Assembly (NCBI RefSeq): GCF_016595465.1
Contig: NZ_JAENIK010000011.1
Span: 744,001-808,000, forward strand
Direction of reading: 5' to 3'
Length of the DNA: 64,000 bases
Source of the DNA: Luteolibacter yonseiensis
Lineage (GTDB): Bacteria > Verrucomicrobiota > Verrucomicrobiia > Verrucomicrobiales > Akkermansiaceae
This document shows, piece by piece, positions 21,698 to 25,921 of this stretch. The position numbers and the translations under genes are program-made. Within the stretch, counting starts at the first letter, position 1. Each line of letters begins with the position of its first letter. Below the pieces are notes generated by a model. It was given only the letters and a program-made list of their open reading frames with translations. It had not been told where the DNA came from and ran no database searches.

Positions 21698-22515
21698 GCT
21701 TACCGCAGCGCAAGAAATCCGCCGAAGAGATCGCGAAACTCCGCGAGTCACTCGGTATTGGCGGATTTCCTGTCGCAGAAGCCCCGGGGGTGGAGAGCCC
21801 TCCGAAGCCCGCCACCGCTGTGGCTGTCCCCGCTCCGGCGGCTGCGCCAGTTGAGCCACCTGTCAGGAAAATGCCGGATCCTCCGGAGGTGGTCGAAGCT
21901 CCGCAAACTCCGGCAGCCACTGCTCCGCCACCGGTCGAGGCGAGGGAACCCAAGGCGGTCCATTCGTTGAAACGCTCGGAACGGGTTCCCGTCCTCTCGG
22001 CGGATCCGACGAAGGCTTCGCCCTCACAGGGTTCGTTCCTGCCGGTGCCAAACCCGATCCTTGCAGTGGATCCGCCGCCCGGGCCAAAAGCTCCGAAAAG
22101 GGTGCGCTCGTTGAGAAAGTCCGAACAAATCCCGCTGCCCGCCGCGCACGCGCCGCCGAAGGATTCCACCCTGCCGATCCATCGTCACAGCGACGAGGAG
22201 CTGGGCGAGATCCGCCGCCGGGAGATGCTGGCCAATTCAGTGGGGGCGGCTCCTCCGCCGGTACTGGCCGCGCATCCGGTTCTCTACGCTCCGGGATATC
22301 TGCTGGTTCTCGGCAGTGCCGCGGGAATCTACTTTTACGATGTGGACAAAATGGTTCCCGCCGGTTGCGTGGTGACCGCTTTTCTCATCGCGACGTTCAT
22401 CTTTGTGAAAAAACCGCTGTCGCGCCACCACGCCGCCTTCATCGCGGTGATGGCGCTCTTTCTCATCATCTTCGGCGCACTCTATTATTTTCCCCAACTC
22501 CAGCATGGCACGTAA
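21694..22515 (+). CDS. Proline-rich membrane protein between pyrR and pyrB
   Basis: A 273-residue protein of unknown function. Residues 1-180 are soluble, rich in Pro and Ala (PPPVEAREPKAVHSLKRSE) with two RSLRKSEQ/HSLKRSER-like repeats. The last ~85 residues hold two or three hydrophobic helices (VLYAPGYLLVLGSAAGIYF; HHAAFIAVMALFLIIFGALYYF). It overlaps pyrR by 4 bp and pyrB by 11 bp, so translation of the three is coupled. I know of no pathway role for such a protein. It may be a lineage-specific passenger or a membrane anchor. Confidence 0.7.
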   Translation: MSLPQRKKSAEEIAKLRESLGIGGFPVAEAPGVESPPKPATAVAVPAPAAAPVEPPVRKMPDPPEVVEAPQTPAATAPPPVEAREPKAVHSLKRSERVPVLSADPTKASPSQGSFLPVPNPILAVDPPPGPKAPKRVRSLRKSEQIPLPAAHAPPKDSTLPIHRHSDEELGEIRRREMLANSVGAAPPPVLAAHPVLYAPGYLLVLGSAAGIYFYDVDKMVPAGCVVTAFLIATFIFVKKPLSRHHAAFIAVMALFLIIFGALYYFPQLQHGT

Positions 22516-23428
22516 AGACCTACTCGACATCGCCTCTCTCGACCGCGAGGAAATCGAACACCTCTTGGAGCAGTCCGCTCCGTTCAAGGATCTCTTCACC
22601 CGCTCGGTGAAAAAAGTCCCCGCGCTGAAAGGCAAGTCGGTGCTCATGCTCTTCTACGAAGCCAGCACCCGCACCCACTCCTCCTTCGAGGTCGCCGCCA
22701 AACGCCTGTCCGCCGATGTCACGAACTTCGATGTCGCGCACTCCTCCATCACCAAGGGCGAGTCCGTCCGGGAAACCGTCGAGACGCTGCAGGCGATGCG
22801 GACCGACTACATCATCGTCCGCCACGGCCGCTCCGGCCTGCCCGGCATGATCGCGAAGCAGACGAAGGCCTCCGTCATCAATGCCGGCGACGGCGCGCAC
22901 GCGCATCCCACCCAGGCCCTGCTGGACGCCTTCACCATCAAGGAAAAGTTTCCGGATCCCACGGGGAAAAAGGTTCTCATCATCGGGGACATCCTGCACT
23001 CCCGCGTCGCCCGCTCCACCAGCACGATCCTGAAAAAGCTCGGCGTGGACGTCGCCTACCTCGGACCCGGCTCTCTCGTCCCGAAGAACGGCCCGGAAAA
23101 CATCCGCCGCTTCACCGACTACAAGGAAGCCATGGCCTGGTCGCCGGACTTCGTCTATCTCCTCCGTGTCCAGATGGAGCGGCAGGACGTGCAATACTTC
23201 CCAAGCGTCCGCGAATACCACCGCCTCTACGGCATCACCGACGCCCGCCTCGCCGACATCCGCGACCGCGGACTCTACCTCATGCACCCCGGCCCCGTGA
23301 ACCGCGGTGTCGAACTCTGCGACGCCGTCATGGACTACGAACGCAGCCTCATCAACGACCAGGTGGAAAACGGAATCGCCGTGAGGATGGCGGTGCTTTA
23401 CTGGCTGAAGCCGGGGCGGGAGGGATAA
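22505..23428 (+). CDS. pyrB: Aspartate carbamoyltransferase, catalytic subunit
   Basis: A 307-residue enzyme that forms N-carbamoyl-aspartate from aspartate and carbamoyl phosphate, the second step of UMP synthesis. The carbamoyl phosphate site is FYEASTRTHSSFEVAAKRLS (residues ~46-65). NAGDGAHAHPTQALLDAFTI and a C-terminal MHPGPVNRGVEL loop are diagnostic. No regulatory chain (pyrI) gene is present, as expected for a class like that of Bacillus. The upstream gene overlaps it by 11 bp. pyrC lies 1.2 kb downstream beyond repeat-bearing accessory DNA. Confidence 0.95.
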   Translation: MARKDLLDIASLDREEIEHLLEQSAPFKDLFTRSVKKVPALKGKSVLMLFYEASTRTHSSFEVAAKRLSADVTNFDVAHSSITKGESVRETVETLQAMRTDYIIVRHGRSGLPGMIAKQTKASVINAGDGAHAHPTQALLDAFTIKEKFPDPTGKKVLIIGDILHSRVARSTSTILKKLGVDVAYLGPGSLVPKNGPENIRRFTDYKEAMAWSPDFVYLLRVQMERQDVQYFPSVREYHRLYGITDARLADIRDRGLYLMHPGPVNRGVELCDAVMDYERSLINDQVENGIAVRMAVLYWLKPGREG

Positions 23429-23430
23429 GC

Positions 23431-23470
23431 AGAAGAGGGAACCACGGATGGACGCGGATGCACACGGATT
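23431..23470. repeat. Left inverted repeat of GxxExxY unit
   Basis: A 40-bp copy with the core ACCACGGATGGACGCGGATG, beginning 3 bp after the pyrB stop. It is the reverse complement of the right copy at 23847-23886 with few differences. It contains the ATG used as the start of the GxxExxY gene, so the repeat encodes the first seven residues of the protein. Confidence 0.85.
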
Positions 23471-23846
23471 GAGATTTGAAGTCGAGACCGGCGAGATCAT
23501 CAATTGCGCATTTGAGGTGCTCAATGCCTTGGGGCACGGACTTCTGGAGAAACCCTATGAGAATTCGCTATGCGTCGAGTTCGGATTGCGCGGCATCCCA
23601 TGGAGCCAGCAGCCCCGGTACGATGTTGTTTATAAAACCGTCAAAGTCGGTGAATACGTTCCCGATCTCATTGTGTTCGGTTTCGTGGTGGTGGACACCA
23701 AAGTCATCGATCGCATCACTTATCACGAGATCGGTCAAATGCTCAATTATCTGAAGATCACGGGTCATCCCGTGGGTCTGATTCTGAATTTCAAACGAGG
23801 TCGTCTGGAGTGGAAACGGGTGATCAACCATTTCCCATCTGCCTGA
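23448..23846 (+). CDS. GxxExxY protein, predicted PD-(D/E)XK nuclease fold
   Basis: A 132-residue protein. It carries the family signature G31-x-x-E34-x-x-Y37 in LGHGLLEKPYENSL. It also shows the PD-(D/E)XK nuclease core: YVPDLIVFGFVVVDTKVID provides Asp73 and Asp83-x-Lys85, and GQMLNYLKITGHPVGLILNF follows as the conserved Q helix and strand. Most relatives have Glu where Asp83 stands; Asp is allowed in this fold. The function of the family is unknown. The gene fits exactly between two inverted repeats: its ATG lies in the left repeat and the right repeat begins immediately after its stop. Nuclease activity is predicted from motif spacing, not shown. Confidence 0.87.
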   Translation: MDADAHGLRFEVETGEIINCAFEVLNALGHGLLEKPYENSLCVEFGLRGIPWSQQPRYDVVYKTVKVGEYVPDLIVFGFVVVDTKVIDRITYHEIGQMLNYLKITGHPVGLILNFKRGRLEWKRVINHFPSA

Positions 23847-23886
23847 AATCCGTGTTCATCCGCGTTCATCCGTGGTTCCTCTTCAT
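23847..23886. repeat. Right inverted repeat of GxxExxY unit
   Basis: Begins at the base after the GxxExxY stop codon and reads AATCCGTGTTCATCCGCGTT onward. Its reverse complement matches the left copy at 23431-23470 and the third copy at 23983-24020 over nearly the whole length. Confidence 0.85.
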
Positions 23887-24186
23887 CTGTGCCAGCGCGA
23901 GCGGCGTCGTCGGAACTCTTGATGACCGTATTGGAACATTATCTGGGCGACAGCATCGAGCCGGAGGGCGATAGTTAAGATCGAAGAGGAACCACGGATG
24001 AACGCGGATGAACACGGATCAAGATTGGAAAGAAAATCTTCCGTCCCACCGTTGTGACTTTCAGGCATCGGGCATGGCTGCGAAAAATTTTGAATTTCCG
24101 TTAAATCTTTGCATATTATGTAGTTGGCGATTTTGCGTATCCCTCAAACTGCTTGATCGGAGCGGATCAGCGGGTATCCTGCCCCC
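23887..24186. other. Repeat-bearing accessory DNA with gene remnants
   Basis: This stretch contains no intact gene. A plus-strand frame ending at about 23976 could be the tail of a lost helical protein (SELLMTVLEHYLGDSIEP). It is enclosed by the right repeat and the third repeat copy. After the third copy, an A/T-richer segment (24060-24140) leads up to a decayed toxin-antitoxin pair. Confidence 0.4.
23983..24020. repeat. Third copy of the dispersed repeat
   Basis: A 38-bp copy (core ACCACGGATGAACGCGGATG) in the same orientation as the left copy at 23431. With the oppositely oriented copy at 23847 it brackets a 96-bp gene-remnant segment, so the three copies alternate in orientation. Confidence 0.85.
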
Positions 24187-24425
24187 ATGACCGCCGTCGC
24201 AGAGAGGCTTTCAACGAGGCCCGGGCTCTCGGTGAAGACGAGCGCATCGCTCTGGCGGAGAAGCTGGTGGAAAGCATTTCCCTTGATGCCGGAATTCTCA
24301 CCGCCCAGTTGGACGAGGTGGAGAGCCGTGCCGCCGATCTTGCTTCGGGGGCGGCGATTACGATCCCCGGCGAAGCCGCATCGCGGATGGTCAGGGCGGC
24401 GGATAAAAAAGGCCGCGTGGAATGA
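24187..24425 (+). pseudogene. Addiction-module antitoxin, frameshifted near the N-terminus
   Basis: The peptide ALGEDERIALAEKLVESI followed by a short C-terminal region is typical of the putative addiction module component family (about 75-80 residues), whose members pair with RelE/ParE toxins. The natural start ATG at 24187 (MTAVAERL) is one frame away from the conserved part, so one base appears to be missing near 24208. The conserved frame can only be opened from an unconvincing TTG at 24153. The downstream toxin remnant overlaps its stop codon as ATGA. I read the pair as a decayed toxin-antitoxin module. Confidence 0.6.
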
Positions 24426-24541
24426 GATTCCATTTTCACGAGAAAACATCTTTCGGATCCAAAGCGCTTTGCTTTTGCCCGGAAAAATTATCAAGTCGCC
24501 CGCGCCCGGCGTTTTCCCTGCTCGATTATCTTCGAGTTTGA
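24422..24541 (+). pseudogene. Truncated toxin remnant (RelE/ParE-like start)
   Basis: A 39-residue frame starting with MRFHFHEKTS, overlapping the antitoxin stop by ATGA as intact modules of this type do. RelE/ParE toxins commonly begin with a similar MRFxFHPEA strand, but after the first few residues the similarity is lost and the frame stops early, far below the usual ~95 residues. This is evidence of deletion or decay. Identification rests on six to eight residues and gene order. Confidence 0.4.
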
Positions 24542-24643
24542 TGAACCCTCTTCCACTGTTTTCATCCATGCGGTTTTCCATCAGAAACGCCAGTCCGGTA
24601 GTTGGTTGAACCGTAAGTCAGACCTTTAAAACCTTTTCAAACC

Positions 24644-25921
24644 ATGCTCCTCATCATCAACGCCCGCATCGCTTCCGAAGACTCGCCTGATCTCACCGAG
24701 GGCGATGTCCTGATTTCCGACGGAAAAATCCAGCAGGTCGGCAAAGGCCTCGTCGCTCCGGATGGCGCGCGCGTCATCGATGCCGCCGGAAAACTCCTGA
24801 TGCCCGGGATGTTCGACGCGCACGTGCATTTCCGCGAGCCGGGTTTCGAGGCGAAGGAAACCATCGCCACCGGCAGCGAGGCGGCGATCAATGGCGGCAT
24901 CACCGGTGTCGTCATGATGCCGAACACCAGTCCGGCGATCGACTCGGCGACGGTGGTGGGCACCGTGCTGGACATCGCCAAGCGGACGGCGCGTATTCCG
25001 GTTTACACCTCCGGCTGTGTCACGATCGGCCGCCATGGCAAGGAGCTGGCGGGCATCGACGGCATGCGCGCGCTCGGCGTGAAGATGCTCACGGACGACG
25101 GCGACACCACGGGCGATCCCGCCGTTCTGCTCCGCGCGATGCAATACGCCACCGAGTTCGGCATGTTCTTCGCCAGTCACTGCGAGGTTCCCGAACTCGC
25201 CGGACCCCGCGCGCTCAATGAAGGTGCGATGAGCTACCGGCTCGGCATCAAGGGTTCGCCCGCCTGTGCCGAGGAGATCATCATCGACCGCGACATCCGC
25301 CTCGCCCATGCGGCCGGAGCACACATCCACATCCAGCACGTCTCCAGCAAGCTCGGCATGGAAACCATCCGCTGGTGGAAACAGCGCGGTGATGTGAAGG
25401 TCACCGCCGAGGTTTCCCCGCACCACCTGCTTTTCACCGACGAGCACATCGGCGACTACGACACGAACTACAAGATGAACCCGCCGCTCCGCACCCAGGC
25501 GGACAACGACGGTTTGCTGCAAGGCCTCATCGACGGCGTCTTCGACCTCATCGCCACCGACCACGCACCCCACACGCCGTTCGAGAAATCCCAGGATTTC
25601 ATCAGCGCGCCGAACGGCATCACCGGTATGGATACCGCGCTGGTCTCGCTCTACCACCACTTCGTCGCCACCGGGAAATTCGGCTGGGATCTCATCGTGA
25701 AGCGCTACAGCGCCGAGCCCCGCCGCCTGATGGGGCTGCCCGCCGTTTCCATCGAAGCCGGCCAACCCGCCGACCTCATCCTCTTCGACACGGAAAAGGA
25801 AACCACCTTCACCAAGGAGTTCATGAAATCCAAATCCCAGAACACGCCCTTCATCGATCAGACGTTGAAGGGGAGTGTGGAGCTGGTGGTGCTGGGGGAT
25901 GAGATTCTGCTGGAGCGGTGA
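24644..25921 (+). CDS. pyrC: Dihydroorotase (class I type)
   Basis: A 425-residue amidohydrolase that cyclises carbamoyl aspartate to dihydroorotate, the step after PyrB. The metal motif is DAHVHFREPGFEAKET (residues ~58-73). MMPNTSPAID, the histidines in FASHCEVPELAG and HIQHVSS, and the catalytic Asp in LIATDHAPHT are present. It resembles the long class I enzymes such as Bacillus PyrC. It is separated from pyrB by the GxxExxY unit and TA remnants, so an ancestral pyrB-pyrC transcript may have been interrupted. It likely has its own promoter in 24542-24643. Confidence 0.93.
   Translation: MLLIINARIASEDSPDLTEGDVLISDGKIQQVGKGLVAPDGARVIDAAGKLLMPGMFDAHVHFREPGFEAKETIATGSEAAINGGITGVVMMPNTSPAIDSATVVGTVLDIAKRTARIPVYTSGCVTIGRHGKELAGIDGMRALGVKMLTDDGDTTGDPAVLLRAMQYATEFGMFFASHCEVPELAGPRALNEGAMSYRLGIKGSPACAEEIIIDRDIRLAHAAGAHIHIQHVSSKLGMETIRWWKQRGDVKVTAEVSPHHLLFTDEHIGDYDTNYKMNPPLRTQADNDGLLQGLIDGVFDLIATDHAPHTPFEKSQDFISAPNGITGMDTALVSLYHHFVATGKFGWDLIVKRYSAEPRRLMGLPAVSIEAGQPADLILFDTEKETTFTKEFMKSKSQNTPFIDQTLKGSVELVVLGDEILLER

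Follow-up and report, generated by a model that had tools for sequence, protein, structure and literature searches.

A small gene of the GxxExxY family (TIGR04256/PF13366), common in bacteria and predicted to encode a PD-(D/E)XK nuclease, usually sits between two inverted copies of its own short DNA repeat, and gene-less pairs of such repeats are scattered through genomes that mostly also carry the gene. Of 76 GxxExxY genes scored from a many-phyla scan, 55 have strong inverted flanks, against 3 of 231 control open reading frames (ORFs) from the same loci. The arrangement looks like an undescribed self-spreading repeat system. We found no stated function for TIGR04256 in the sources searched, and no paper linking GxxExxY to repeats in a literature library that does not cover subscription journals or preprints; of the repeat words searched for in the same library only one appeared, in papers unrelated by their titles.

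The repeat-framed gene between pyrB and pyrC

The starting point was a 64,000-nucleotide stretch of Luteolibacter yonseiensis DNA (the window), in which an initial annotation had described a GxxExxY gene exactly enclosed by inverted repeats of about 40 bp within the pyr cluster, as a unit of 456 bp. That description is correct. The features of the locus are as follows (pyrB and pyrC were named from sequence and the pyr pathway, without a family search):

22505-23428, + strand: pyrB, left neighbour, stop codon at 23426-23428
23432-23470, + strand: repeat arm 1 (R, read inward; GAAGAGGGAACCACGGATGGACGCGGATGCACACGGATT), with outer GAAGAGGG, then ACC and three units CACGGAT / CGCGGAT / CACGGAT; holds the ATG of the gene
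23448-23846, + strand: GxxExxY gene, 132 aa, TIGR04256/PF13366, predicted PD-(D/E)XK fold (start uncertain, ATG 23448 or TTG 23469)
23847-23884, - strand: repeat arm 2, inverted copy of R, beginning at the base after the stop codon
23983-24019, + strand: third copy of R, 98 nt beyond arm 2 and complementary to it over 37 of 37 positions
24644-25921, + strand: pyrC (dihydroorotase-like), right neighbour of the junction

Arm 1 begins three bases after the pyrB stop, and the aligned core of the two arms is 33 nt and 94% complementary. The third copy had not been listed in the initial annotation. A 28-nt core with up to 3 mismatches occurs 3 times in the window and was not found in 100 shuffles. 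The ATG at 23448 does lie inside the repeat, as had been claimed, but an in-frame TTG at the end of arm 1 (23469) is an alternative start; the same geometry (ATG inside the repeat, TTG at its end) was seen in loci L187 and L222, two of the 11 relatives inspected. The repeat carries a GAGG about 10 bases before its internal ATG (window 23432-23450), so R may bring a translation start with it. The whole genome (5.73 Mb, 13 contigs) has two GxxExxY genes and seven strict copies of the repeat, three of them at this locus. The second gene (L001), which we read as lying between two methionine-synthase-like pieces (no family search was run), has a weaker inverted frame of another repeat type. Also in the window, at 24153-24609, a small ORF that by eye resembles an addiction-module antitoxin is frame-broken, while it appears intact in locus L139.

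The protein scored 118.1 bits against TIGR04256 (cut-off 35) and 109.8 bits against PF13366 (cut-off 22), and no other family was matched up to an E-value of 1, including the Rpn profile (PF04754). The residues of the GxxExxY motif (G31, E34 and Y37) are invariant with the window protein in sets of 18 diverse members and of 36 sequences. The nuclease-like residues named by the initial annotation (D73, D83-x-K85 and Q97) are present as described: D73, K85 and Q97 are invariant in both sets and Y101 in the 18 members, while position 83 is Asp here and Glu in at least 90%. An AlphaFold2 model computed from 36 sequences has a pLDDT of 93.5, with helices at 3-28 and 34-48, then strands and a helix at 92-105. 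Structure searches with Foldseek and VIA-align placed the model among PD-(D/E)XK enzymes: SSO0001 (Z 10.1), R.SwaI (8.2 and 8.0), a Spirosoma restriction-like protein (7.6), Hjc resolvase (7.3) and LHK-Exo (7.1), with lambda exonuclease also among the best matches. Only 5 of 981 chains reach Z 8, so these matches show a fold and not a function, and metal-dependent DNA cleavage was not assayed. A profile of one subgroup found no convincing relative among solved chains (one match, E 0.63). The best matches include members of the Cas4/RecB/lambda-exonuclease group (SSO0001 is a Cas4 protein), and Q97-xxx-Y101 resembles the QxxxY motif of that group, but GxxExxY proteins are only about 130 aa long; CRISPR or helicase partners were not looked for.

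Framing and protein-repeat pairing across genomes

To assess how general the framing is, we scanned a collection of genome contigs with a profile of one subgroup, which confirmed 535 relatives, of which the best 80 were kept, from records named as Verrucomicrobia, Bacteroidetes, Planctomycetes, Chloroflexi, Acidobacteria, Proteobacteria, Cyanobacteria and others. Four had flanks too short to score. Of the other 76, the inverted-flank score was ≥ 14 in 55 and ≥ 16 in 49, compared to 3 and 1 of the 231 control ORFs (Mann-Whitney p 6e-29); control ORFs were used because a first null for inverted flanks was inflated, many loci sharing a repeat type. With the loci of the family genomes added, 107 and 99 of 140 scored genes (146 non-identical genes; one locus, L116, gave no profile hit) reached the two thresholds, and 33 of 140 have no clear frame. 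A replicate of 30 loci over the window's phylum gave 23 and 17, with controls at 1 and 0 of 37. In the pyrB loci described below, 1 of 246 ORFs reached 14, and that one is the window gene itself. In locus L048 (Aeoliella straminimaris) the tblastn match to the GxxExxY query contains a stop codon, possibly a decayed copy.

The repeat R is a non-palindromic block of about 26-45 nt, typically three or four units of 8-10 bp (generic form ACC-RCnnAG-n-CRCnnAG-nn-CRCnnAG; window form CACGGAT-GAA repeated), with types including CCAAG, CGAAG, GGAG, CAGAG, GGAT, GAAT, GGAA and others; the CCAAG and GAAT types coexist in one genome. A clear internal period was seen in only 114 of 198 arms, and in 106 of these it is 8, 9 or 10 bp. 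By a motif chosen from these same arms (the ACC-CRCnnA(G/T/A) sense), 175 of 198 arms read inward, 9 outward and 14 were undecided. Arms lie at a median of 23 bp before the profile start and 7 bp after the stop (99 genes).

Repeats differ from gene to gene, but the two arms of one gene match. The mean score of an upstream flank against its own downstream flank was 20.3, compared to 9.4 for permuted partners (sd 0.23; maximum 10.5 in 10,000). The own downstream flank is the single best match in only 67 of 140 genes, and among the top three in 91, because repeat types are shared between loci. Within seven genomes that hold several scored genes, 23 of 25 between-gene arm comparisons score 4-9.5 and the other two 15.0 and 18.5, while own arms score 15-37. 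Protein similarity and repeat similarity correlate over 107 genes (Spearman 0.39, null sd 0.048), whereas mock arms taken 300-500 bp away gave 0.01 (103 genes). In the many-phyla set alone (54 genes of one protein subgroup) the two do not correlate beyond chance (r 0.084, null sd 0.062). On the protein tree, the AG/AT/AA repeat label (86 of 107 genes could be labelled) changes 11 times against 19.1 when shuffled, with a minimum of 15 in 500.

These data bear on a reading in which the two arms are expression signals of the gene (ribosome site and operator in front, terminator or mRNA-stabilising hairpin behind), kept similar by selection for binding of the protein to its own gene. The closeness of the arms to the gene, the GAGG and ATG within the window repeat and the protein-repeat co-variation, which fits autoregulation, agree with it. 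It does not explain the gene-less inward pairs and single copies elsewhere in the genome, their tie to the presence of the gene, or the third copy beyond arm 2 in the window, and we regard it as unlikely.

Dispersed repeats and the age of the insertions

The AG pattern of the repeat occurs in 41 of 145 family genomes, of which 39 carry a GxxExxY gene, compared to 41 of the 104 genomes without it (p 1e-10); the AT pattern occurs in 52, of which 46 carry a gene, compared to 34 of 93 (p 5e-10); and either occurs in 63, of which 56 carry a gene, compared to 24 of 82. In 155 genomes of the phylum set, 24 have the AG pattern, 19 with a gene, compared to 54 of 131 (p 7e-4). A reversed control pattern was found once each in three family genomes for AG, in none for AT, and once each in three phylum genomes. 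Seven repeat-bearing family genomes (G007, G011, G037, G053, G080, G116 and G135) and, by our reading, five phylum genomes (G180, G236, G253, G305 and G310) have no detected gene, though some are incomplete assemblies; G053 has 16 AG-type repeats and one AT-type in a 96% complete genome, either orphan repeats after gene loss or a gap in the assembly.

In the listed portion of the family repeats, neighbours under 500 bp apart are inward 50 times, outward 0 times and in the same direction 8 times. In the listed portion of the phylum set the counts are 22, 4 and 8, with the outward ones in two array-rich genomes, G178 and G264; G264 (C19:53450-53829) holds an alternating R> <R R> <R R> <R array, like the BIME arrangement of REP sequences. 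Twenty gene-less inward pairs were read, and these are 60-176 bp in all, with R at both ends. Three such pairs fold as strong hairpins (z -6.0, -3.1 and -10.0), while two single Rs of the window fold no better than their shuffles (z 0.99 and -0.04). Several 70-bp pairs of the family genome G048 share an outer TGGATGGA on one side, a GAATC on the other, or both. Dispersed copies best match the arms of a gene of their own genome in 20.0 of 40 cases in G048 (ties shared; 1.1 expected), 6.0 of 10 in G101 (0.5 expected) and, weakly, 1.1 of 17 in G039 (0.2 expected), where only one own gene was included. Only part of the copies and part of the genes of each genome were used here, and gene-framing copies were left out.

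We then asked whether the gene and its arms move as one piece, as the initial annotation had inferred in proposing a compact mobile or self-propagating unit whose nuclease acts on the repeats that frame it. None of 29 other pyrB loci of the genus has a GxxExxY gene within the fetched flanks of up to 1.5 kb, by tblastn and by profile (loci were fetched for 30 of the 39 genomes with a pyrB match, the window's own included). Only absence of the gene is claimed, since the pyrB junctions of relatives are too diverged to show a clean junction and a precise empty site was not obtained. Where pyrC was also seen (16 loci) the junction is 34-826 bp, and two of these junctions (L127 and L136) hold a repeat of this kind without a gene. 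A kinase to response-regulator junction was read in 16 genomes (L251-L266): G048 and G101 have R-gene-R units with different R types in both arms; G129 has an inward R pair around a different small ORF (L261); three have inserts of 317-342 bp without the repeat (L262, L263 and L265); two have 101 and 170 bp; and eight have 23-91 bp without an element. The genes of G048 and G101 are sisters (branch support 92, not starred; locus L046 is taken to be contig C215 of G101), and a shared old insertion with joint change of both arms could not be told apart from two insertions. If L259 and L266 are one shared old insertion, both arms changed unit type and spacing together as the protein diverged, a natural case of protein-repeat co-evolution.

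Of the 24 most similar gene pairs examined, 12 share both flanks, among them the six closest, one shares one side and 11 share none. The shared flanks indicate old orthologous insertions, and dN is 0.04-0.10 against dS 0.9-2.3 in the four close pairs for which it was computed (a dN of 2.65 for one pair came from an unaligned codon pairing and was not used). With one family member as query, tblastn matched 8 of 72,556 plasmid records and 0 of 50,697 phage records, and a profile of one subgroup found none among viral contigs. The gene thus behaves mostly like a resident, and the repeat is the part that spreads. Movement of the 456-bp cassette as a whole, by nuclease-driven, homing-like insertion at sites related to R, is unlikely: the absence of the gene at the other pyrB loci, the kinase-regulator junction and the pairs without shared flanks speak for it, but many insertions are old, with one family member as query phage matches are absent and plasmid matches few, and genes of one genome mostly carry different repeats and not copies of one cassette.

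An ordinary insertion sequence with a misannotated transposase is very unlikely. Terminal inverted repeats do surround a single gene, and MITE-like derivatives exist, but the predicted fold is not that of a DDE, HUH, serine or tyrosine recombinase, and arms of different genes in one genome mostly differ; identical multi-copy elements were not searched for systematically. In 27 gene-less pairs the longest shared flank word averaged 5.30, compared to 4.98 between unrelated elements; no target duplication was seen, but no significance test was run and some families lack duplications anyway, so this comparison does not settle the point. Compared to MITEs, which are likewise short gene-less elements with inverted ends, these pairs have no parent transposase and their arms are internally repetitive. 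Transposition itself was not observed, the collections searched holding one genome per species.

Interpretation and comparison with known systems

The interpretation given in the initial annotation is partly supported. The link between GxxExxY genes and framing repeats is real, general and specific, and the PD-(D/E)XK core is predicted with high confidence. Three outcomes had been set out in advance as counting against it, and none occurred: flanks of GxxExxY genes elsewhere exceed chance, relatives do not all carry the gene at this locus without repeats, and the predicted structure does not lack the PD-(D/E)XK core. A compact unit that moves as a whole is not supported.

With moderate confidence, we favour a repeat-plus-enzyme system built like REPIN-RAYT but with unrelated parts. 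What our analysis demonstrates is the frame, the pairing of arms, their orientation, the dispersal of repeats, their co-occurrence with the gene, the predicted fold and purifying selection; that the protein recognises R, acts on inward pairs and relies on host repair for joining is inferred, its action on the repeats from co-variation, and binding, cleavage and movement were not examined. In this view the GxxExxY protein, a minimal RecB/Cas4/lambda-exonuclease-like nuclease, would recognise its own R, whose units lie a little under one helical turn apart, and act in trans on inward R pairs, probably as the hairpin or cruciform they can form, nicking or trimming the DNA so that host repair or template switching copies the pair elsewhere. 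PD-(D/E)XK enzymes only hydrolyse DNA, so joining must come from elsewhere. The gene itself would be kept for long times at one place, as RAYTs are.

REPIN-RAYT is the nearest precedent for the population of inward pairs (PMC3116915, PMC3733652). Shared with it are a chromosomal gene linked to its own repeat class, dispersed non-autonomous inward pairs that form hairpins and are tied to the enzyme gene, singlets and, in one genome, an alternating array. The present system is not a member of REP-RAYT, because the enzyme is not an HUH Y1 tyrosine transposase and the single repeat is not palindromic, but it probably works like one. None of the forms of R seen is tagged GTAG or CGTC at one end, R is a run of 8-10-bp units, and the frame is found at most scored GxxExxY genes over many phyla. 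The nearest precedent for how a bare nuclease could promote copying is the template-switch proposal for the Rpn/YhgA-like recombination-promoting nucleases (PF04754; PMC5350276), which are small PD-(D/E)XK proteins proposed to promote RecA-independent joining, with two independent insertions of rpnC at one intergenic place. They belong to another protein family, RpnA cuts with little sequence specificity, and no framing repeats are described in the text consulted. BrickBuilt elements of Porphyromonas (PMC4596501) were considered and set aside as unrelated, since their ends match ISPg elements.

If this view is true, PD-(D/E)XK nucleases join HUH enzymes as makers of REPIN-like populations. The link to a private repeat gives TIGR04256 a testable substrate at once and gives a frequent kind of unexplained dispersed repeat a candidate enzyme, and the natural set of protein-repeat pairs would be a resource for learning how a very small nuclease reads DNA. 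A bolder reading, which we hold only tentatively, is a separate class of genomic parasite or domesticated repeat system, in which a nuclease of about 130 aa reads a private, roughly helically phased array of three or four short units and, with host repair, spreads inward pairs of that array, each genome being able to hold several mutually exclusive protein-repeat specificities. Four-helix-bundle genes would then be a second, parallel class, and a small gene between inward short-unit arrays would be a general design not yet named.

These four-helix-bundle (S23-like, TIGR02436) genes occur in 58 of 79 family genomes. Of 30 loci in family genomes (L320-L349), 22 have inverted flanks at ≥ 14 by a profile-based analysis, compared to 0 of 33 control ORFs in the same loci; a first, motif-based pass had scored only 9 of 30 and was replaced. 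Framing is thus not unique to nucleases and does not by itself prove that the framed protein mobilises its repeats, while the distinct unit length strengthens the idea that each protein family is matched to its own type of array. The finding also bears on generic framing, in which another host process (replication slippage, template switching or an unknown recombinase) builds inward arrays around small accessory genes, GxxExxY is one of several passengers, and repeat and protein share history only because they stay linked. The orphan repeats and the inward pair around a different ORF (L261) agree with this reading, but unit length is specific to the protein family, R types track the protein tree in the full set, the repeat is strongly tied to gene presence across genomes and other ORFs are rarely framed (3 of 231 and 1 of 37); we consider it unlikely, though the strongest of the alternatives. 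The 23S rRNA intervening sequences with S23 ORFs, as in Coxiella (PMC4990558), are a related case. In such sequences a small ORF lies within inverted repeats, but the protein is unrelated to GxxExxY and the unit length differs, and the loci studied here are not shown to lie in rRNA. Of the 18 four-helix-bundle arms tested, 16 gave a clear period signal and 15 of these have a 7-bp period, with units such as GTAGCGA, AGTTGAG, AATTAGG and AGACATA.
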